Part shown: positions 12,153 through 35,181 of the stretch, piece after piece
How the letters are laid out: each line of letters starts with the position of its first letter
How positions within the stretch are numbered: the first letter of the stretch is position 1
Source of the DNA: Myxococcales bacterium
Lineage (GTDB): Bacteria; Lernaellota; Lernaellaia; Lernaellales; Lernaellaceae
Reading direction: 5' to 3'
DNA length: 43,113 nt
Assembly (NCBI GenBank): GCA_012517325.1
Contig: JAAYVF010000094.1
Location: forward strand, 1 to 43,113
Translations under genes and position numbers: made by a program
The notes under the pieces: model-generated
What the model was told of the DNA's origin: nothing
Database searches by the model: none
What the model saw: only the letters and a program-made list of their open reading frames with translations

Positions 12153-13415
12153 TTACACCGAACGGCGGCGAAGCGAGAGTTTACGGTTCCAATGGGCGAA
12201 CAGCCGGCCGAACAACGATTGGCCGGACATTCGCACTCCCGGCGGAATCGGCTGTCCCGCGCCGTTGACGCAACCGCCCGGACAATTCATGACCTCGATG
12301 AAGTGGTAGGGTGATTTGCCGGCGCGCACTTCCTCGCAAAGCATCCGCGCGTTTTCCAAACCGTGGACGATGCCGACCTTGACCGTCGGACCGTTCGGAA
12401 TGGGAATGGCCGCGGAACGAACCGCCTGTCGGCCACGGACCGCGGTCAATTCGACGTTTTGCAGTTCCTGCCCGGAAACAGCTTCGAAGGCGAAACGCAA
12501 CGCCGCTTCCATGACGCCGCCGGTCGCGCAGAAGATCGTGGCGGCGCCCGTCGCGTCGCCGAGAGCGGGGTCGGCGGCTTCCTCGGGCAACTTCGCGAAG
12601 TCGATCCCCGCGGATTTGATCAGGTAGGCCAGTTCGCGCGTGTGAAGGGTCGCGTCGATATCGCGGAATCCACTGGCGGCCATTTCCGGCCGCAATCCCT
12701 CATATTTCTTGGCGATGCAGGGCATGATGGAAACCGTATAGATTTTTTCCGCGGTCTGTTTCGTGACGTCCGCGCCATAGGTTTTCGCCAGCGCCCCGAG
12801 CATGCCGATCGGCGACTTGCAGGTCGAGAGGTGCGGCCGCAAATCGGGATAATAGGTTTCGACGAATTTGATCCAGGCTGGGCAACAACTGGTAAATTGC
12901 GGCAGCGGTTTGTCGCTCTGCTTGGTCAATCGCGCGATGAGTTCCGTGCCTTCCTCGAGAATCGTGACGTCGGCGGTCATCTCGTTGTCCCAGACATAGT
13001 CGAAGCCCAACCGGCGCAAAGCGGCGAACATCTTGCTGTTGACCGATTGGCCGGGGTCCAGGCCGAACGCTTCGCCGAGCGCGTAACGCACGGCCGGCGC
13101 CGGCATGGCGACAACGACCTTGTCGGGGTCGGCCAACGCTTTCCTCACCGCCGCGAGAAACGAAACATTTTCGTAAATGGCGCCATACGGACAGTGATAG
13201 AGGCACTGTCCGCAATGGACGCAGGCGGCCGGATCGACGACCGCGCGCGGACCGTCCTTGCCGTCGCCCGGTTGAATCGCTCCGGTGCCGCAAACCGATT
13301 GGCACTCGCCGCACTTTTGACATTTCGCCGGATCGACCTGCACGAAAAACAGGTCGTCGACGGCCGCCGGCGGCGGCGCCTTTTCACCCATCCAGACTTG
13401 TTCGACTTCAATCAT
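12153..13415 (-). CDS. hydL: [FeFe] hydrogenase large subunit, Desulfovibrio-type
   Basis: A 420-residue catalytic subunit. Two [4Fe-4S] ferredoxin motifs are at Cys32/35/38/42 and Cys65/68/71/75. H-cluster motifs are complete: TSCCPAW (Cys177, Cys178), MPCIAKK (Cys233) and EVMNCPGGC (Cys378, Cys382). These positions nearly coincide with those of the Desulfovibrio periplasmic enzyme. No small-subunit domain is fused; it is supplied by the next gene. The start at 13415 follows GGAGGAGG closely, and the open frame upstream to 13442 is disregarded. The start codon overlaps the end of the LarC-like gene by 8 bp, showing tight coupling. No signal peptide is present, so export would depend on the Tat signal of the small subunit. 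Confidence 0.95.
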   Translation of the reverse strand: MIEVEQVWMGEKAPPPAAVDDLFFVQVDPAKCQKCGECQSVCGTGAIQPGDGKDGPRAVVDPAACVHCGQCLYHCPYGAIYENVSFLAAVRKALADPDKVVVAMPAPAVRYALGEAFGLDPGQSVNSKMFAALRRLGFDYVWDNEMTADVTILEEGTELIARLTKQSDKPLPQFTSCCPAWIKFVETYYPDLRPHLSTCKSPIGMLGALAKTYGADVTKQTAEKIYTVSIMPCIAKKYEGLRPEMAASGFRDIDATLHTRELAYLIKSAGIDFAKLPEEAADPALGDATGAATIFCATGGVMEAALRFAFEAVSGQELQNVELTAVRGRQAVRSAAIPIPNGPTVKVGIVHGLENARMLCEEVRAGKSPYHFIEVMNCPGGCVNGAGQPIPPGVRMSGQSLFGRLFAHWNRKLSLRRRSV

Positions 13416-14322
13416 GAATTCCTCCTCCCAATAGCGGCGCACCGAGTAAAACCCGCAGGGCGTTCGGCCGATCGGCCAACGGATGGTCTCCGACGCCGAA
13501 ACCTTGCGAGACGATTTTCATGTCTGGCGGCGGGCCGAAGCGTTCCGCCACGGTTGCCAGGAGAGCGGCGCCGGTGGGCGTCGTCAATTCGCCCTCGCCG
13601 CCGGTGCCGACGGGAAGCCCCCGCAGCAACTCGACGGTCGCCGGCGCGGGAACCGGCAACCAGCCGTGCGCCGTTTCCACCAGACCCGTGCCCAAAACGG
13701 GCGGCGAAGCGGAAATCGACGCGGGTGCCAGAAACGTCAAGGCGGCGGCCATGCCGACGATGTCGGCGATCGAGTCGTCGGCGCCGACCTCGTGAAAGGT
13801 GACCCGGTCGACATCGACGCCGTGGATTTTCGCCTCGGCGCACGCCAGCACCTGAAAGATTTTGTGGGCCAGTTCGCGCGTTTCAGGCGGCAATTCGGCC
13901 CGGTTGAGCATTTCGCGGATTTCCCCGTAATCGCGATGCCCGTGCGCGTGCCCGTCGTGAGCCATGCCGTCCGAATCGCCGATAGAACCCCCGGGACTGA
14001 CGATCGTTCCGGTCGGAACTTGTGGATGGTCTTTCTCGTGAGCACTCACTCTAGTTTCGTCCTTGCCGGACGTCACGCAGAAGGACTTGCCGACCAGGGA
14101 GTGGGTTCGCCGGTCGCGAAAAGCGATCGTCAGCCCGGGAAGTTTCATTGCGTCCACCGCGTCGCGGACGATTTTTTCAGGGACGCCGGCATCGACCAGG
14201 GCCGCGACGGTCATGTCGCCGGCGATGCCGGAAAAGGTGTCGAAGTGCAAATGCAGTCCGGGCGGCAGATCGTCAAGCATTGCCGGCTCGGAGTCGACTG
14301 GTACCTTGTTGTTTGGCTTCAT
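13408..14322 (-). CDS. larC: LarC1-only protein (nickel-pincer cofactor LarC N-terminal domain)
   Basis: A 304-residue protein with the hallmarks of LarC (DUF111/COG1641): FDTFSGIAGDMTVAALVDAG at the start, a His-rich insert (DGHAHGHRDY), KIHGVDVDRVTFHEVGADDSIADIVG in the middle, and a GFGVGDHPLADRPNALRVLLG end. The last block is where LarC1 normally joins LarC2. Here the frame stops about 11 residues later and the next hydrogenase gene starts, so LarC2 is absent. LarC inserts nickel into the pincer cofactor of lactate racemase-type enzymes, and the LarC2 half carries the CTP-dependent metallation. No larB, larE or larA lies nearby. Its setting between two [FeFe] hydrogenase genes, with an 8 bp overlap, suggests another metal-handling or scaffold role (inference). 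Confidence 0.85.
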   Translation of the reverse strand: MKPNNKVPVDSEPAMLDDLPPGLHLHFDTFSGIAGDMTVAALVDAGVPEKIVRDAVDAMKLPGLTIAFRDRRTHSLVGKSFCVTSGKDETRVSAHEKDHPQVPTGTIVSPGGSIGDSDGMAHDGHAHGHRDYGEIREMLNRAELPPETRELAHKIFQVLACAEAKIHGVDVDRVTFHEVGADDSIADIVGMAAALTFLAPASISASPPVLGTGLVETAHGWLPVPAPATVELLRGLPVGTGGEGELTTPTGAALLATVAERFGPPPDMKIVSQGFGVGDHPLADRPNALRVLLGAPLLGGGIHD

Positions 14323-14368: not shown

Positions 14369-16294
14369 TCAGAGGATGAATTTGCCGCGCGGCGTATAAT
14401 GCGTGTGCAGCAGCTTGTGACTCAGGTGACCGCACGGCCCATCCGTCAGAAACTCGCGGTATAACCGCAGCACGGCGGGGTTTTCGTGGGATTTGCGAAC
14501 GGCGTAGGCGCCGTCCTCGGCATAAATGGCCCGGGCCCGCGCTTCCCGGATGTCCGGCCCGGTGGGAATCGGTTGGCCGCCGCCGCCGAGGCAACCGCCC
14601 GGGCAGCCCATGAATTCGATGAAATGGAACGAGGCCAGTTCGCCGCCGGCCTTGATGTTTTCCACGACCCGCCGCGCATTCGCCGTGCCGTGCGCCACGG
14701 CCACCTTCAAGGTCGCGCCCTTCAGCCAATCCCAATGCGGCACCAGAGGCCGCAACAATTCCGGCACCGCGCCCACCTTGGGGATCGCCAGTTCGACCTT
14801 GCGGACGCCTTCCATGCCGCGCACCGGGACGATGTCGGCGTGCGTGAACAGGCTTTCCACCTTTTCACCCGTCACCAATTCGATCACGGTGCGCAGCGCC
14901 GATTCCATGACACCGCCCGTCGCGCCGAAAATCACGCCCGATCCGGTGGCGGTGCCGAAGGGATCGTCGAAGTCGGATTTTTCCATCCGCGGCAGATCGA
15001 TCCCGGCTTCCTGCATCATCTTGGCCAGCTCGCGGGTGGTCAGGCCGTAGTCCACGTCCTTGAAACCGCTGGCGACCATTTCCGGCCGATTGCACTCGAA
15101 TTTTTTCGCGGAACAAGGCATCAGGGCGACCGTGACGATGTCGGCCGGATCGATGCCGGCCACTCCGGCATAGAAGGTTTTGATGATCGCGCCGAACATC
15201 TGTTGCGGCGACTTGGCGGTCGAGACGTTCGGGATGAATTCCGGATAAAAATGTTCGAGGTACTTGATCCAGCCCGGCGAACAGGAGGTGAATTGCGGCA
15301 GGGCCACGGCGGCATCCTTTTCCACCAAGGCCCGATACAACCTCAGAATCAGTTCCGTTCCTTCCTCGAGAATCGTCAAATCCGCGGTGAAATTGGTGTC
15401 GAACACCTTATCGAAGCCGCAGAACCGCAACGCGGTATTCATCTCGAAGGTCAGGGGCCGCCCCGGCTCCAAGCCGAAGCACTCGCCGATGGCCGCGCGC
15501 GGCGCGGGCGCGGTCTGGATGACGACGTGTTTGCGCGGGTCGTCGATCGCCGCCCAGACCTCGTCGGTCGGATCGTTGGCGCGCAAGGCACCCGTCGGAC
15601 AACGGTTGATGCATTGCCCGCAATTGATGCAAACGACCTGGGAAAGCGGCCGGTCCATGAACGTGGCGATTTTGGTCCGCTCGCCGCGGTTGATCGCTTC
15701 CAGACAACCGACTTCCTGCAGGTCGATGCAGGTGCGGACGCATCGCCGGCACAAAACGCACTTGTTCATGTCACGGATGACCGCATGGCTGGAGCCGTCG
15801 ATTTCGTACAACGGCCGCTCGGGATGACCGAAGCGGAACGAATCGACGCCGTATTCCTTGGCCAGCGCCTGCAATTCGCAATTGTTGTTGCGGCCGCAGG
15901 CGTAGCATTCGCCGTAGTGTTTGGCGAGCAGCAGATCCAGCACATGCCGCCGCGCCCGGCGCACCTTGCGGGTATGCGTCCACACGCTCAGTGGTTGGAA
16001 CACGGGATAGGCGCAAGCCGCCTGCAAGGTGCGCTGGCCCTCGACTTCGACCACGCAAACGCGGCACATGCCGGCGGCGCGGAGATCCGGGTGCGCGCAC
16101 AAGGTGGGGATCCGAATGCCCAAGCGGTTCGCGGCTTCGAGAATCGTCGTGCCGAGGGGAACCTTGACTTCCTGGCCGTCGACGGTCACCGTCACCCGAC
16201 CGCCGATCTGGGTTTCGTCGTCGGGCCGCGCGATGGCGTGTCCCAACTGGCTGACCGGCGCCCGATTCGCCTCCATTTGCAGGGTCTCTTTCAT
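14369..16294 (-). CDS. hydA: NAD-linked [FeFe] hydrogenase catalytic subunit HydA
   Basis: A 641-residue subunit with domains in order: an N-terminal [2Fe-2S] NuoG-like domain (Cys66/77/80/94), a His-Cys3 [4Fe-4S] site (His126, Cys130/133/139), two ferredoxin [4Fe-4S] sites (Cys179/182/185/189 and 222/225/228/232), the H-cluster domain, and a fused small-subunit domain at the C-terminus ending LLHTHYTPRG. H-cluster motifs are TSCSPGW (Cys338, Ser339), MPCSAKK (Cys394) and FMGCPGGC (Cys564, Cys568). The second Cys of the first motif is Ser. The start at 16294 follows AGAGGA; the longer open frame to 16468 is not supported. It works with the HydB and HydC genes just upstream, exchanging electrons between NADH and H2 in the cytoplasm. 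Confidence 0.93.
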   Translation of the reverse strand: MKETLQMEANRAPVSQLGHAIARPDDETQIGGRVTVTVDGQEVKVPLGTTILEAANRLGIRIPTLCAHPDLRAAGMCRVCVVEVEGQRTLQAACAYPVFQPLSVWTHTRKVRRARRHVLDLLLAKHYGECYACGRNNNCELQALAKEYGVDSFRFGHPERPLYEIDGSSHAVIRDMNKCVLCRRCVRTCIDLQEVGCLEAINRGERTKIATFMDRPLSQVVCINCGQCINRCPTGALRANDPTDEVWAAIDDPRKHVVIQTAPAPRAAIGECFGLEPGRPLTFEMNTALRFCGFDKVFDTNFTADLTILEEGTELILRLYRALVEKDAAVALPQFTSCSPGWIKYLEHFYPEFIPNVSTAKSPQQMFGAIIKTFYAGVAGIDPADIVTVALMPCSAKKFECNRPEMVASGFKDVDYGLTTRELAKMMQEAGIDLPRMEKSDFDDPFGTATGSGVIFGATGGVMESALRTVIELVTGEKVESLFTHADIVPVRGMEGVRKVELAIPKVGAVPELLRPLVPHWDWLKGATLKVAVAHGTANARRVVENIKAGGELASFHFIEFMGCPGGCLGGGGQPIPTGPDIREARARAIYAEDGAYAVRKSHENPAVLRLYREFLTDGPCGHLSHKLLHTHYTPRGKFIL

Positions 16295-16328
16295 CGTTGT
16301 CCTCTCGTTCGTTGCGCGGGGGGATGGA

Positions 16329-17525
16329 TCAACGCAAACCGTTCGCCGCTCGGCCCAACAGTTCATCCTTAAAATGGGCGGCGATGGACAAAAACGCGTT
16401 GGGGGCCGATTGTCCCAGCCCGCACTTCGAGGCCGATTGCATCGTCTCGCCGAGTCCGCACAATTCATTCAGGTAGCTCATCGAACAGGTTCCGGCCGCC
16501 AGCCGCCGCACGCCTTCCAACAATTTCGCGGCGCCTTCCCGGCAGGGCGTGCATTGTCCGCAGGATTCCTCGACGAAAAATTCGAGGAAATTCTCGGCGA
16601 CATCCAGCAGGTCGCGGTGCGGGCCGATGACGATGACCGACCCGCCGGTGGCGACGTCCTCGTAAGCGATGGTTCGGTCGAATTGGCCGGCCGGCACGCA
16701 TTGCCCGGAGGCGCCGCCGATTTGCACGGCCTTGGCTTCGGCGCCGCCCACGACCGCGAGCAATTGCGCCACCGTGATCCCCAAGGGGAACTCGTAAACC
16801 CCCGGCCGGGCGCAATCGCCCGACACCGAAAACAGCTTCGGCCCGGTCGACCGCGCCGTGCCGACACGGTTGAACCAAGCCGCGCCTTTCTCGCCGATTC
16901 CCGCCACCCAGGCGAAGGTTTCCACGTTGTTGACGATCGACGGGCATTTTTGAAAACCCGTATTCACCGGAAACGGCGGCCGGTTGCGCGGCTCGCCGCG
17001 ATGGCCCTCGAGCGACTCGATCAGCGCGGTTTCCTCGCCGCAGATATAGGCGCCGGAACCCATTCGGATTTCGATGTCGAAGGCGAAGCCGGCCTGACCG
17101 TCCACCGCGTCGCCGAGCAGTCCCTCGCGCCGCCGCCGGCTCAACACCTCTTCGAGCCAGCCGCGCAGATAGGCATATTCGCCCCGCAGGTAAATGATTC
17201 CCCGCGATGCGCCGACGGCGTACGCGCCGATGGTCATGCCGTCGATCACCAAATCGGCGTATTCGGTCAGAATGACGCGGTCCTTGAAGGTGCCAGGCTC
17301 GCCCTCGTCCGCGTTGCAGATGACATACTTTCGTTCGCCGACCGCGGCCGCCGCCAGATTCCACTTGACGCCGGTCGGAAACCCGGCCCCGCCGCGCCCC
17401 TTGATTTGCGAGGCGGTCACCTCGCCGATGAGGTCGGCGCGCGAGCGTTTAAGCGCCGCCCGCAACCCGGCCAAGGGTTCGATCGCGGCAAAGGAAATTG
17501 GTCCGACAAGATTGGAATGAATCAT
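16329..17525 (-). CDS. hydB: NuoF-like flavoprotein subunit of NAD-linked hydrogenase (HydB)
   Basis: A 398-residue diaphorase subunit that binds FMN and NAD(H). It shows the NuoF signatures GRGGAGFPTG (43-52), CNADEGEPGTFKDR (70-83) for NADH/FMN, GSGAYICGEETALIESLEG (156-174), and the [4Fe-4S] ligands SCGQCTPC (Cys322/325/328) with Cys368. It lacks both the N-terminal thioredoxin-like [2Fe-2S] domain and the C-terminal two-cluster ferredoxin domain found in electron-bifurcating Thermotoga-type HydB, which is over 600 residues. The start at 17525 overlaps the HydC stop in an ATGA, and the frame extending upstream to 17795 is only a shadow of hydC. The reduced architecture argues for simple NAD(H)-H2 exchange, though this is inference. 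Confidence 0.93.
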   Translation of the reverse strand: MIHSNLVGPISFAAIEPLAGLRAALKRSRADLIGEVTASQIKGRGGAGFPTGVKWNLAAAAVGERKYVICNADEGEPGTFKDRVILTEYADLVIDGMTIGAYAVGASRGIIYLRGEYAYLRGWLEEVLSRRRREGLLGDAVDGQAGFAFDIEIRMGSGAYICGEETALIESLEGHRGEPRNRPPFPVNTGFQKCPSIVNNVETFAWVAGIGEKGAAWFNRVGTARSTGPKLFSVSGDCARPGVYEFPLGITVAQLLAVVGGAEAKAVQIGGASGQCVPAGQFDRTIAYEDVATGGSVIVIGPHRDLLDVAENFLEFFVEESCGQCTPCREGAAKLLEGVRRLAAGTCSMSYLNELCGLGETMQSASKCGLGQSAPNAFLSIAAHFKDELLGRAANGLR

Positions 17526-18040
17526 CGCGCCTCCGCGCTTTCGGCCATGGCATGGACGCCGAAGGTCCGTTTGCATTCCTCGATGATGTCGTGCACCGCC
17601 GCCGGCGTGACCCGCGTGTAAACGTGGTCGTTCACCAACAGCGCCGGCCCCTGATCGCACATGCCCAGACAATTGGCCTCGGCCAGCGTGAACCGGCCGT
17701 CGGCCGTCGTTTCGCCGAAGCCGATGCCCAGGTCGGCTTCCAATTGCCGGGCGACGCGATCCTTGCCCTGCATGACGCAGGAAAGCGTCCGGCACAGACG
17801 AACGACAAACCGGCCTTGCGGACGCGACCTTAAGAAGGAATAGAAGGAGACGACGCCGTGAACCTCGGCGGGATGAATCGACAAATGATCGGCCACCAGC
17901 TGCATCGCCACGTCGGATATCCAGCCGAATTTCGCCTGGATTTGCTGCAAGGCCGGAATCAAGTTTTCACGCCGCGATCCCTGGCGCTCGAAATACGCGG
18001 CGATCTCCTGTCGCAATCGCTCCTGTTCCGTCACAAGCAT
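17522..18040 (-). CDS. hydC: NuoE-like [2Fe-2S] subunit of NAD-linked hydrogenase (HydC)
   Basis: A 172-residue thioredoxin-fold ferredoxin. The [2Fe-2S] ligands are visible as CxxxxC (Cys83, Cys88) and CxxxC (Cys124, Cys128) in the order expected for NuoE/HydC. The N-terminal helical bundle contains the LIPALQQIQAKFGW block typical of the family. It passes electrons between HydB and HydA. Its ATG lies three bases after the stop of the receiver-domain gene, and its stop overlaps the hydB start, so the three genes are translationally coupled. Confidence 0.95.
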   Translation of the reverse strand: MLVTEQERLRQEIAAYFERQGSRRENLIPALQQIQAKFGWISDVAMQLVADHLSIHPAEVHGVVSFYSFLRSRPQGRFVVRLCRTLSCVMQGKDRVARQLEADLGIGFGETTADGRFTLAEANCLGMCDQGPALLVNDHVYTRVTPAAVHDIIEECKRTFGVHAMAESAEAR

Positions 18041-18469: not shown

Positions 18470-18653
18470 GTGTTACCATTGCCAAGAACCCGCCCTTTTG
18501 TCAAGCGAAAACACCGGATCGCAGGATTATTTTATCGCCCTGCCGTTGGATCTCTGCCGCGATTTTCCGGATGAAACGACACCTTCGTTCGCCTACAATA
18601 CAGGTCGATTGCCGACGAATAAGGGTGGCCAAACCCTGGAGAGGAATAGCGCA

Positions 18654-19376
18654 ATGCAGTTTTTGCGGATCGACATCAGCGGCGCAGTGGCGGTGATGAC
18701 CTGGAAACACGAGGAACAAAACCGGTTCACGTCGCCGTTCAACGAGGAAATCATCGCCGGCCTGGAGCAACTGGCCGCCGACCCGGCGATTCGGGCGGTC
18801 GTGGTGACCTCCGGCGTGCCGAAATATTTTTCGACCGGCCTCCACCTCGACTGGATCAAGGCCCAGGTCGCCGCCGACCCGGAATCCCTGCGGCCGTTCT
18901 TTCATTCGATCAACCGGCTGATGACCCTGGCGACCGGTTACCCGAAACCGCTGATCGCGGCGATCAACGGCCACGCCGTTGCGATGGGCTTGATCATCAC
19001 CGCCTGCATGGACTACCGCCTGATGGCCGTCGACCGCGGCTTCCTGCGCTTGCCCGAGGTCCAAATCGACATTCCCTTCCTGCCCAGCATGACCGCCGTC
19101 TTCAACGAAATCCTGCCGCCGCGCTCGTTCCGCGACCTGGCCTATACCGGCGACAAGTTCACGCCGATCCAGGGGCAGGAAATGGGGTTGATCGATCAGA
19201 CCTTCCCGGCCGCCGAACTGCTGCCGGCAGCGGTGGAACTAGGGAAGAAGCTGGGCGCGCACAAGTCGGCAACCTACGCGACCATCAAGCGCGACAACCG
19301 GCGCCGGGTGCTGGCCGCGCTGCGGGACGACGACCCGGCGGCGATCGAGGTATTACTGAAACGATTCACCGGTTAG
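18654..19376 (+). CDS. enoyl-CoA hydratase/isomerase family protein
   Basis: A 240-residue crotonase-fold protein. The first oxyanion-hole strand (VVVTSGVPKYFSTGLHLDW) and the second (INGHAVAMGLIITACMDYRLM) are typical. A later acidic residue in FLRLPEVQIDIPF occupies the place used by delta3-delta2-enoyl-CoA isomerases, while the usual hydratase Glu pair is not obvious, so an isomerase role in fatty acyl-CoA turnover is a reasonable guess. The start at 18654 has GAGAGGA at a good distance; the frame runs open to 18498 but without a site. A short selenoprotein gene follows 42 bp later on the same strand, probably in one transcript. Confidence 0.85.
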   Translation: MQFLRIDISGAVAVMTWKHEEQNRFTSPFNEEIIAGLEQLAADPAIRAVVVTSGVPKYFSTGLHLDWIKAQVAADPESLRPFFHSINRLMTLATGYPKPLIAAINGHAVAMGLIITACMDYRLMAVDRGFLRLPEVQIDIPFLPSMTAVFNEILPPRSFRDLAYTGDKFTPIQGQEMGLIDQTFPAAELLPAAVELGKKLGAHKSATYATIKRDNRRRVLAALRDDDPAAIEVLLKRFTG

Positions 19377-19418
19377 CGACGCGCGCCGCGGAAAAAATTC
19401 GCCGCGCAGGAGCCCGCC

Positions 19419-19637
19419 ATGAAAGTGACGATCACCTATTGCACGCTGTGAGGGTACCTGCCCAAGGCCGTCGGTCTGGCGGCTGAGTTAAAAGAAAAAT
19501 TCGGCGCGGAGGTGGAATTGATCCGCGGTTCCTACGGCGATTTCGAGGTGCGCGCGGACGATCGCCTGGTCTATTCCAAAACGCGAACCGGCCGCTTCCC
19601 CGAAGCGGGCGAAGTCAGCCGGTCGCTGGGCAAGTAG
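19419..19637 (+). CDS. SelW/Rdx-family selenoprotein with in-frame UGA (Sec11)
   Basis: A 72-residue protein read through an in-frame TGA at 19449-19451. The start ATG at 19419 has AGGAG six bases upstream. The first residues are MKVTITYCTL, then U (TGA), then GYLPKA, so the redox motif is CxxU in the thioredoxin-like Rdx family (SelW, SelT, SelH), where the usual form is CxxC or CxxU after a beta strand. The rest, including the RGSYGDFEV strand, the TRTGRFPEAGE segment and a TAG stop, fits that short fold. A GGUCU-loop hairpin sits just after the TGA. Standard gene finders stop at TGA, so the gene is easily missed. Function in the family is thought to be redox regulation. Confidence 0.9.
19452..19484 (+). 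promoter_or_regulatory. bacterial SECIS hairpin for the SelW-like gene
   Basis: Starting 14 bases after the TGA, bases 19467-19472 (GCCGTC) pair with 19478-19483 (GGCGGC), including one G-U pair; an outer G-U at 19466/19484 may extend the stem. The loop 19473-19477 is GGUCU, the apical sequence known from the E. coli fdhF SECIS that SelB recognises. Position inside the coding region, close after UGA, is the bacterial arrangement. Confidence 0.85.
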
Positions 19638-31750: not shown

Positions 31751-31839
31751 AACGGAGAGACATGCCGCATGAGCAACCCTGAAACTCACGCCTCGAAGCG
31801 CGCGGCATGCGGACAACAGGGATTTTCACGGAGTCAATC

Positions 31840-34800
31840 ATGGTGACCGTCGGCCGCTATCCTTTCGAACGACAAGAATCCGATCACTCCCCCGACCGGA
31901 ATCCCCGCCTGCACGCGGACCAACTGCACTTGTTGAAAATCCAGCGCACCTGCGTCCACGACGGCCCGGGCATCCGCACGACCGTTTTCTTTTTCGGCTG
32001 CGGGTTGCGCTGCGCCTGGTGCCAGAATCCCGAGGCGCTTTCGCTGAAAGCCGACGACGCGACCGGCGAGTTTCGTTCGGTCGACGAGATCGTCGAAATC
32101 ATTACGCGCGACAAGGACTACTACATTAAAACGGGCGGCGGCGTGACGTTGAGCGGCGGCGACCCGCTGCTGCAGGATCCGGCGACGCTGATCCCCCTGC
32201 TGAAAAAATTGCGGAAGGAAAAAATCCACGTCGCGGTCGAAACCTCGTTGCACGTGCCCTGGAAAAACGTCGAAAAACTGGCGCCGTACATCTCCCTCTT
32301 TCTCGTCGATCTGAAAATCGTCGGCAACGATCTGCTGCACAAGAAATACACCCACCAGACCACCGGCCTGATCCACGGCAACATCAAAAAGCTGCTTGCG
32401 CTGAAGGCCAAGGTCAAATTCCGCATGGTGATCGTTCCCGGCTACAACGACGCCGACGACCATCTCCGGGCGGCCGCCAAATTTCTGAAGTCCGTCGGCC
32501 ACCGCTCGCTCGAACTGCTGAAGTACCACAGCATGTATGAGGAAAAAGCCCGCCGGCTGGGCATCGAGCGTGAATCGTTGCACATCGGGAACGACCAGGC
32601 CCTCGCCGCGGTTAAAAACGCGGTGCGGGTGTTCGCCGACCAAAAGATCAAGGCCGAGTGCTACGACCTGGACGCGCCCCGGCACAAAGCGGTTTTCACG
32701 CCGCGCGTTTACGACATCCAAAAGGCGATCCGGGAAAGCGATCACAGCCTTTGCTTCGAGGTGTCCCGCCTGAAAACGGCCTTCTACAAGAAAAACGGCT
32801 TCGACCAGCCCAACCCGATTCACCGGGCCAAGCGCCTCGCCTACGTGTTGCAAAACAAGCAGGTCATCGTTTATCCGGGCGAATTGCTGGTCGGCAATTT
32901 CACCTCGAAACGGCGCGGCGCCCAGGTGTGGGAAGAGCACTACGGCATTCTGCTGGGTTCCATTCTCCACCAGATCGACACCCAGGAGCCGGTGCCCTTC
33001 AAGTGCAGCCGGGAAGATAAGATCGACTTTTATCGCAATATTCTGCCGTTCTGGATGAAGCATTGCCTTTTACGGAAAGTCTATCCCACGATCCACGACT
33101 TCCGCCTGCCCCTGGCCCGGATTTCCGAGATGAATACCGGGTTCAACAACAACCTGTCGGCGATCGCGCATTTCGTCGTCAACTATGAACGCATCCTCAA
33201 ATACGGCACGACGGGCCTCATCGCCGAGATCGAGGCGACGCAAAAGGAAAAACCCGAAAACAACCGGGACTTCTACCTCGGCGCGATCATCGGCCTGAAA
33301 GCGCTGGAGACTTTCGCCGAAAATTACGCCAACAGCCTGGCCGCCCTGAGCCGGAAAGAAGCCGACCCGATCCGCCGCCGGGAACTGGAGGAAATGGCCG
33401 CCATCTGTCGTTGGGTTCCGAAGAACCCGGCCCGCACCTACCATGAAGCCTTGCAGAGCATGATGTTTCTGCACATCGCCATCTGCATCGAATCCTACGA
33501 AAACGCCATTTCCCCCGGCCGCCTCGATCAGATCCTCAATCCCTATTACGAAAAGGACAAAGCGGCCGGCCTCATCGATTACGAGAAAGCGAAGGAGTTG
33601 TTGGCGCTGTTCATCCTCAAGCTGGACGAATCCATCCTGGCCAACGACGGCAACACCTATATGCGTTTCGGCCGGCTTTTCGAAACCATGTCGATCGACC
33701 AGACCATTACGGCGGGTGGGCTGGACAAGGACGGCAAGGACGCCACCAACGACCTGACCTACGCGCTGCTGGATATCTGCGAATTGCAGCCCTACGCCGC
33801 GAACATGACGGCCCGCATCCATCCCGACAGCCCGCCCGAATACCTGGACCGGCTGGCGGAAGTGTACATCAACGGCGCGCCCATGCCGGCGTTGTACAAC
33901 GACGAGATTTATCTCGAAACCCTGCAAAAGCACTACGACACGACGCTGGAAGACGCCCGCAACTACGCGATCATCGGCTGCGTCGAACCCAACGCCTCGG
34001 ACGATCACTACGGCAACACCGACTGCGCCAACATGAACGTCACCCTGCCCTTCCTGCAGGCGCTGAAGGGCGAAGAGGACGACCTGTGGAATTTCGGCAT
34101 CCCCGACCAGGTGGAAAAAATCGCCACCAAATTCATCGATTTCAACTTCGACGGGAAAGACGGCGGGATCTCCCAGGCGGTCACCGCCAACTATCACAAG
34201 GTCCGCGACCTGTTTAAAAAATCGCGCGCGGCCAAGCCCAATCCGCCCGCCGACATGAATGAACTGCTGGCGCGGTTCCAGCGGCGGTTGAACCACCTGG
34301 CGACCGCCATCCTGACCGATCACCAGACGATCGAAAAAGCCATCCGGGAAAACTTCACGACGCCCCTCGCCTCGACGCTCTTTAAAAGCTGCATCGAGCG
34401 CGGCAAGGACGTGACCGAGGGCGGCGCCCGCTTCAACAGCAGCGGCATCCAGGCCGTGGGCATCACGGACGTCGCGGATTCGCTGCACGCCATCGACGAG
34501 GTCGTCTTCAAGCAACAACGCTACACGCTACTGGAAATCATCGACGCCATCGAACACGACTTCGTCGGGGAGAATCGCCCGCAAATCCGCGAAGCCTTGC
34601 TGGCCGTGCCGAAATTCGGCCAGGACGAATCGCCGGCCGCGGTCGCCTGGGTGAACCGGACCTTGCAGGCGTATACCGACGCCCTGAAACAGGTGCCGAA
34701 CTGCCCGCGCAACGGCATTTACGCCGCCGGCTATTACGCGCTCAACGTCAACGACATTTACGGCAAGAAGACACCGGCCCTGCCCTCCGGCCGCTTGCGC

Positions 34801-35181
34801 GGCGTTCCGTTGGCCAACAGCGTCACGCCGCACTATGGCATGCAGTTCGCCGATCTGCTCTCGTCGCTGAATTCCGTCGCCGGGGTCGATTTCGTCGAGT
34901 ACGCGCCGAACGGCACCACGGTCACCTTCACGATCGACGCCGCGCTGTTCCAGGGACCGGGCGGGGTCCGCAATCTGGCGAGCATCTTCAGCACCTATTT
35001 CAAGAAGGGCGGCATGCAGTTCCAGCCCAACGTCATCAACCGGGAAATCCTGCTGGATGCGTACGAGCACCCGGAGAAATATCCCTATTTGCTGGTGCGG
35101 GTCGCCGGTTACTGCGCGTACTTCAACGACCTCTCCGACGACTTGAAAAAGATCATCATCAATCGCACTTGTTACAGTTGA
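31840..35181 (+). CDS. fused radical SAM activase and glycyl radical enzyme
   Basis: A single 1,113-residue chain. Residues ~35-280 are a glycyl radical activating enzyme: DGPGIRTTVFFFGC with the radical SAM Cys54, Cys58 and Cys61, and GGGVTLSGGDPL after it. There is no ferredoxin-like insert between them, so only one [4Fe-4S] cluster is expected. Residues ~285-1113 are a complete glycyl radical enzyme: the thiyl Cys714 in GCVEP with Glu716 two residues on, and the C-terminal RVAGY loop with Gly1090. The Cys-x-Glu pattern is that of eliminases and C-C lyases rather than pyruvate formate-lyase. The substrate is unknown. The start at 31840 is supported by GGAG six bases upstream; an upstream ATG at 31807 lacks one. 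The gene follows the TetR regulator and ends at a strong terminator. Oxygen sensitivity implies an anaerobe. Confidence 0.93.
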   Translation: MVTVGRYPFERQESDHSPDRNPRLHADQLHLLKIQRTCVHDGPGIRTTVFFFGCGLRCAWCQNPEALSLKADDATGEFRSVDEIVEIITRDKDYYIKTGGGVTLSGGDPLLQDPATLIPLLKKLRKEKIHVAVETSLHVPWKNVEKLAPYISLFLVDLKIVGNDLLHKKYTHQTTGLIHGNIKKLLALKAKVKFRMVIVPGYNDADDHLRAAAKFLKSVGHRSLELLKYHSMYEEKARRLGIERESLHIGNDQALAAVKNAVRVFADQKIKAECYDLDAPRHKAVFTPRVYDIQKAIRESDHSLCFEVSRLKTAFYKKNGFDQPNPIHRAKRLAYVLQNKQVIVYPGELLVGNFTSKRRGAQVWEEHYGILLGSILHQIDTQEPVPFKCSREDKIDFYRNILPFWMKHCLLRKVYPTIHDFRLPLARISEMNTGFNNNLSAIAHFVVNYERILKYGTTGLIAEIEATQKEKPENNRDFYLGAIIGLKALETFAENYANSLAALSRKEADPIRRRELEEMAAICRWVPKNPARTYHEALQSMMFLHIAICIESYENAISPGRLDQILNPYYEKDKAAGLIDYEKAKELLALFILKLDESILANDGNTYMRFGRLFETMSIDQTITAGGLDKDGKDATNDLTYALLDICELQPYAANMTARIHPDSPPEYLDRLAEVYINGAPMPALYNDEIYLETLQKHYDTTLEDARNYAIIGCVEPNASDDHYGNTDCANMNVTLPFLQALKGEEDDLWNFGIPDQVEKIATKFIDFNFDGKDGGISQAVTANYHKVRDLFKKSRAAKPNPPADMNELLARFQRRLNHLATAILTDHQTIEKAIRENFTTPLASTLFKSCIERGKDVTEGGARFNSSGIQAVGITDVADSLHAIDEVVFKQQRYTLLEIIDAIEHDFVGENRPQIREALLAVPKFGQDESPAAVAWVNRTLQAYTDALKQVPNCPRNGIYAAGYYALNVNDIYGKKTPALPSGRLRGVPLANSVTPHYGMQFADLLSSLNSVAGVDFVEYAPNGTTVTFTIDAALFQGPGGVRNLASIFSTYFKKGGMQFQPNVINREILLDAYEHPEKYPYLLVRVAGYCAYFNDLSDDLKKIIINRTCYS

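Follow-up and report, generated by a model that had tools for sequence, protein, structure and literature searches.

Locus and gene structure

The window, i.e. the whole stretch of 43,113 nucleotides analysed here, is contig C94 of a draft genome of 5.25 Mb (134 contigs, 97% complete). Its forward strand carries a selW-like gene directly downstream of a gene for an enoyl-CoA hydratase/isomerase, and a convergent gene for a TPR protein follows (Table 1).

The selW-like frame opens with an ATG at 19419, contains one in-frame TGA as codon 11 and closes with a TAG at 19635-19637. We confirmed these coordinates, given in the first-pass annotation as a well-started frame of 73 codons, and found the ribosome-binding sequence AGGAG 6 nt before the ATG. 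The gene is also missed by ordinary ORF calling, as had been claimed: the mechanical ORF list of the window holds no ORF at 19419-19637. With the TGA read as U, the product is MKVTITYCTL-U-GYLPKAVGLAAELKEKFGAEVELIRGSYGDFEVRADDRLVYSKTRTGRFPEAGEVSRSLGK.

Table 1 Features of the selW-like locus and of the selD gene of the same genome.
Feature	Position	Strand	Evidence or remark
Enoyl-CoA hydratase/isomerase gene	18654..19376	+	ECH_1, 2.5e-27; directly upstream, 42 nt gap
Ribosome-binding site AGGAG	19408..19412	+	6 nt 5' of ATG, from sequence
selW-like gene	19419..19637	+	72 residues including Sec, then TAG; Rdx 2.5e-20; NF041051 above cut-off
CxxU redox motif Cys8-Thr-Leu-Sec11	19440..19451	+	aligned to CxxC of 3dex chain
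In-frame UGA as selenocysteine (U11)	19449..19451	+	TGA at same codon in 19 intact relatives; TGT (Cys) in L043
Bacterial SECIS hairpin (predicted)	arms 19467-19472 and 19478-19483, loop GGTCT 19473-19477	+	inside coding sequence; fold energy, covariation, published criteria
selD, locus L031	own genome, C15:10646-11569	-	in-frame TGA, ...LSHGSG-U-ACKL...

Profile searches were run with Cys substituted for U. The 72-residue product matches the Pfam family Rdx (PF10262) with an E-value of 2.5e-20 and 72.9 bits (cut-off 22.6), over residues 2-69 and thus on both sides of the TGA. Comparison with SelW/Rdx proteins, which had been proposed as a check, also gave matches above cut-off to NCBIfam TIGR02174 (60.4 bits against 34.2) and NF041051 (SelTWH_Campy; SelT/SelW/SelH family (seleno)protein; 94 bits against 88). 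The Rdx homology of 19419-19637 is far above chance.

Near the N-terminus lies the motif C8-T-L-U11, with U11 as the second redox residue. The Cys-type protein of solved structure 3dex (IEYCTQCRWLPRA) aligns without gaps across this motif, with Cys opposite U11. From the profile matches and this alignment, the Rdx homology runs on across the TGA, and this codon occupies the redox position, which is where the first-pass annotation had placed it (YCTL-U-GYLPKA).

Conservation of the in-frame UGA

A protein scan of public genome contigs returned relatives that have TGA at the U11 codon in 13 of 13 cases. Their labels are Phycisphaerae, Planctomycetota, Deltaproteobacteria, Proteobacteria, Gemmatimonadetes, Myxococcota, Zixiibacteriota and unclassified bacteria. 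Sixty whole genomes were also searched and yielded the window's own copy and eight others, of which six intact ones (L036-L041) all carry TGA at this codon. In L043, from the same search, the position is Cys, encoded by TGT within a CPRC motif. The 20 intact TGA sequences, the window's included, are all distinct. After the Sec, the window product has Gly, as against Asn or Asp in most relatives.

Since distinct relatives share the TGA codon, a sequencing error or a chance frame, which the first-pass annotation had asked relatives to reveal, is excluded, and its SelW-like selenoprotein reading is supported instead. A recent nonsense mutation or read error in a Cys-type SelW homologue, turning TGC or TGT into TGA, would take a single base change, and Cys homologues do exist (CPRC in L043, the PDB chains). 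The same-codon TGA in 19 distinct relatives from independent assemblies nevertheless refutes this explanation, and the covarying hairpin 3' of the UGA and the Sec machinery of the genome, both described below, also speak against it; we consider it extremely unlikely.

In a relative of the same class, locus L042 (G006:C28:123797-123958), the last of the eight copies from the 60 genomes, starts as ...YCVQ-TGA-NYLP and loses its frame soon after the TGA. It has either decayed or been misassembled; the genome is 77% complete.

Broken copies such as L042 may thus exist, and the UGA of the selW-like frame could truncate the gene, leaving a decaying pseudogene with residual homology. Against this, the window frame is intact to its TAG with residues conserved throughout, has a sound start and ribosome-binding site, and retains the stem pairing of the hairpin. 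A pseudogene is very unlikely here. For a genuine, conserved Rdx/SelW-like selenoprotein gene at 19419-19637, with UGA read as selenocysteine, we estimate a probability of about 0.97 from the sequence evidence.

A hairpin 3' of the UGA

Inside the coding sequence, the RNA can form the hairpin GCCGUC-GGUCU-GGCGGC, with -10.5 kcal/mol and a z-score of -2.53 for the minimal hairpin fold; the first-pass annotation makes no mention of it. Published criteria for bacterial SECIS elements ask for a loop of 3-9 nt, a stem of 4-16 bp, a G in the first two loop positions, a UGA-to-loop spacing of 16-37 nt and an MFE of at most -7.5 (PMC13188914). The window hairpin agrees with all of them: it has a 5-nt loop beginning with GG, a stem of 6 bp (7 counting a G-U pair), a spacing of 21 nt and the energy given above. 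The 40-nt fold starting at the UGA has a z-score of only -0.94.

Covariation is the stronger evidence for a SECIS than the folding z-score. It was assessed on the 20 intact TGA sequences, and also in a 14-sequence version: the hairpin scores 0.300, with shuffled alignments at 0.122 ± 0.027 and slid registers reaching no more than 0.103. Two stem pairs change on both sides (GC to UA; CG to UA or GC). The hairpin is itself coding, and some of its covariation therefore goes along with Ala/Ser and Ala/Glu substitutions in the product. The stem of L038 is displaced by one base, and two relatives miss the MFE limit on the short fold, L012 with -7.2 and L040 with -4.4. The latter, a selW relative with TGA in genome G044, has a weak 4-bp hairpin at the usual place (-4.4 kcal/mol); its SECIS may be differently shaped or placed.

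A scan of the whole window with Rfam at gathering threshold gave no match, so that the SECIS assignment rests on the published criteria and on covariation. A covariance model of UGA plus SECIS, which is selW-specific and misses e.g. selD, was run against the window's own genome. Only the window selW is significant (E 3.3e-7), and no second selenoprotein with a selW-type SECIS was found by this model. Its next matches (E near 1 and above) lack a TGA where one is expected or fall in noise-like frames.

Selenocysteine machinery and codon usage

The first-pass annotation predicted a Sec-decoding organism, and the same genome indeed encodes selA (593 bits), selB (339 bits against a cut-off of 242), selD (339 bits) and tRNA-Sec (72.7 bits against a gathering threshold of 47; ARAGORN: tRNA-SeC, anticodon tca, i.e. 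UCA). The selD gene itself has one in-frame TGA. It falls in the Gly-rich active-site segment that holds the catalytic Cys/Sec of SelD. Sec-containing SelD is common in Sec-decoding bacteria and, judging from its frame, SelD is itself a selenoprotein here; selD with its TGA and selW together give at least two selenoprotein genes in the genome. No Sec-FdhA was seen: the three molybdopterin oxidoreductase loci of the genome, taken as FdhA candidates, have no in-frame stop within their matched frames.

An in-frame TGA inside a conserved protein could also arise if TGA were a general sense codon of the host, e.g. for Trp. In the window, TGA terminates 6 of the 11 recognised genes, internal stops occur in none of the 11 and TGG is used in all; hence Trp is not generally encoded by TGA. 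Moreover, the TGA of selW stands at a redox Cys/Sec site, no Trp site, and the genome has a tRNA-Sec(UCA). These observations refute the general sense-codon reading, the probability of which is vanishingly small.

Among the seven searchable genomes of the class, selB is above cut-off in five. In two of these selB-bearing members, G002 and G003, selW was not detected, G002 being only 84% complete; selW is thus not essential to the Sec trait.

Proposed decoding and function

SelA and SelD, both genome-encoded, would make the Sec-tRNA, and SelB with Sec-tRNA-Sec would decode the UGA of codon 11 as selenocysteine. SelB would be recruited by the SECIS hairpin, 21 nt 3' of the UGA on the same mRNA. 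The product would be a small protein with a thioredoxin-like fold, by homology to the solved Rdx chains, in which Cys8 and Sec11 form a thiol/selenol redox couple. SelW-like CXXU proteins are regarded as redox proteins, and an interaction with glutathione has been reported (PMC1088965).

The gene, its motif and conservation, the hairpin and the machinery are demonstrated at the sequence level, whereas actual Sec insertion and redox activity are inferred, as would be a functional tie to the hydratase gene upstream. Altogether, SelB/SECIS-directed Sec insertion yielding a putative thioredoxin-fold selenol-thiol oxidoreductase is well supported by sequence.

Relation to known SelW-like proteins

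SelW-like bacterial selenoproteins have been known since 2005, for about twenty years. They were the most abundant selenoprotein family in the Sargasso Sea set, with 48 genes (PMC1088965), and have also been recorded in Geobacter, Desulfotalea and Symbiobacterium (PMC1794560). As these reports and a curated NCBI model precede it, the window gene adds to a known family; a literature search on SelW in MAGs added nothing specific. It shares with the reported genes the CXXU motif and a bacterial SECIS that lies directly 3' of the UGA and has a G in its small apical loop. It differs in host lineage; the comparison was made on these features.

With NF041051 and PF10262 the product shares a whole-length match above cut-offs, the N-terminal CxxU and the bacterial form of about 70 residues, but it scores only 94 bits against 88 in the former and is thus probably a somewhat diverged NF041051 member; it also has Gly after the Sec. 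SAV_2001 (PDB 3dex), one of several Cys-type Rdx structures, belongs to the same Rdx family and is alignable over residues 2 to 68 (E 2.9e-8), but has Cys in place of Sec and a chain of 107 residues.

The window selW leaves the current understanding of Sec decoding unchanged. It shows that a UGA-interrupted frame which mechanical ORF listing passes over is a true gene, establishes at the sequence level that a sparsely sampled lineage has the Sec-decoding trait, and adds a well-supported alignment of SECIS and SelW from many phyla.

Genomic neighbourhood

For the upstream hydratase/isomerase, whose ORF opens at 18498, we prefer the ATG at 18654 as start; co-transcription with selW is likely. 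In G001, of the same family and another genus, the selW homologue (L036) also follows an ECH_1 gene (6.6e-26), whose product shares 55% identity with the window hydratase. The hydratase-selW pair is thus kept in these two genera. A functional tie between Sec-SelW and the adjacent enzyme in this class, e.g. protection or regulation of a CoA-thioester pathway, would mean that bacterial SelW has a specific partner; we consider it unlikely.

Pairing with ECH beyond the family was rejected: none of the genes scanned beside L001, L002, L005, L006, L007 and L011 is related to ECH; they encode tyrosyl-tRNA synthetase, FHA-cyclase, PilM, a PhoU-like protein and an alpha/beta hydrolase. Two deltaproteobacterial or proteobacterial MAGs, those of L002 and L005, have a gene for an FHA-domain guanylate/adenylate cyclase after their selW homologue.

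Elsewhere in the window, the reverse strand carries two genes for [FeFe] hydrogenase large subunits (12153-13442 and 14369-16468), with a nickel insertion protein gene (PF01969; 13408-14322) between them. NuoF- and NuoE-like genes (16329-17795 and 17522-18040, same strand) accompany the hydrogenase genes, and the segment 12153-18040 resembles a bifurcating hydrogenase cluster. Along with a glycyl radical enzyme gene, the hydrogenase and NuoE/NuoF-like genes point to an anaerobic metabolism.

A fused activase and glycyl radical enzyme

This last gene (31807-35181, forward strand) is a single open frame of 1124 amino acids. A radical SAM activase-like domain occupies about residues 52-217 and is followed in the same chain by a complete glycyl radical enzyme, in which the PFL-like part covers 299-760 and Gly_radical 1003-1107, with the motifs GCVEP and VRVAGY. 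As a rule, the activase and the enzyme are two distinct proteins, and in these genomes this also seems true of most other copies. In a brief search of the literature, we met no clear account of a fusion of this sort. G003 has it in full length (a 1117-aa frame, 72% identity) and G005 as two pieces at contig ends. This fusion may be more interesting than the selW gene.
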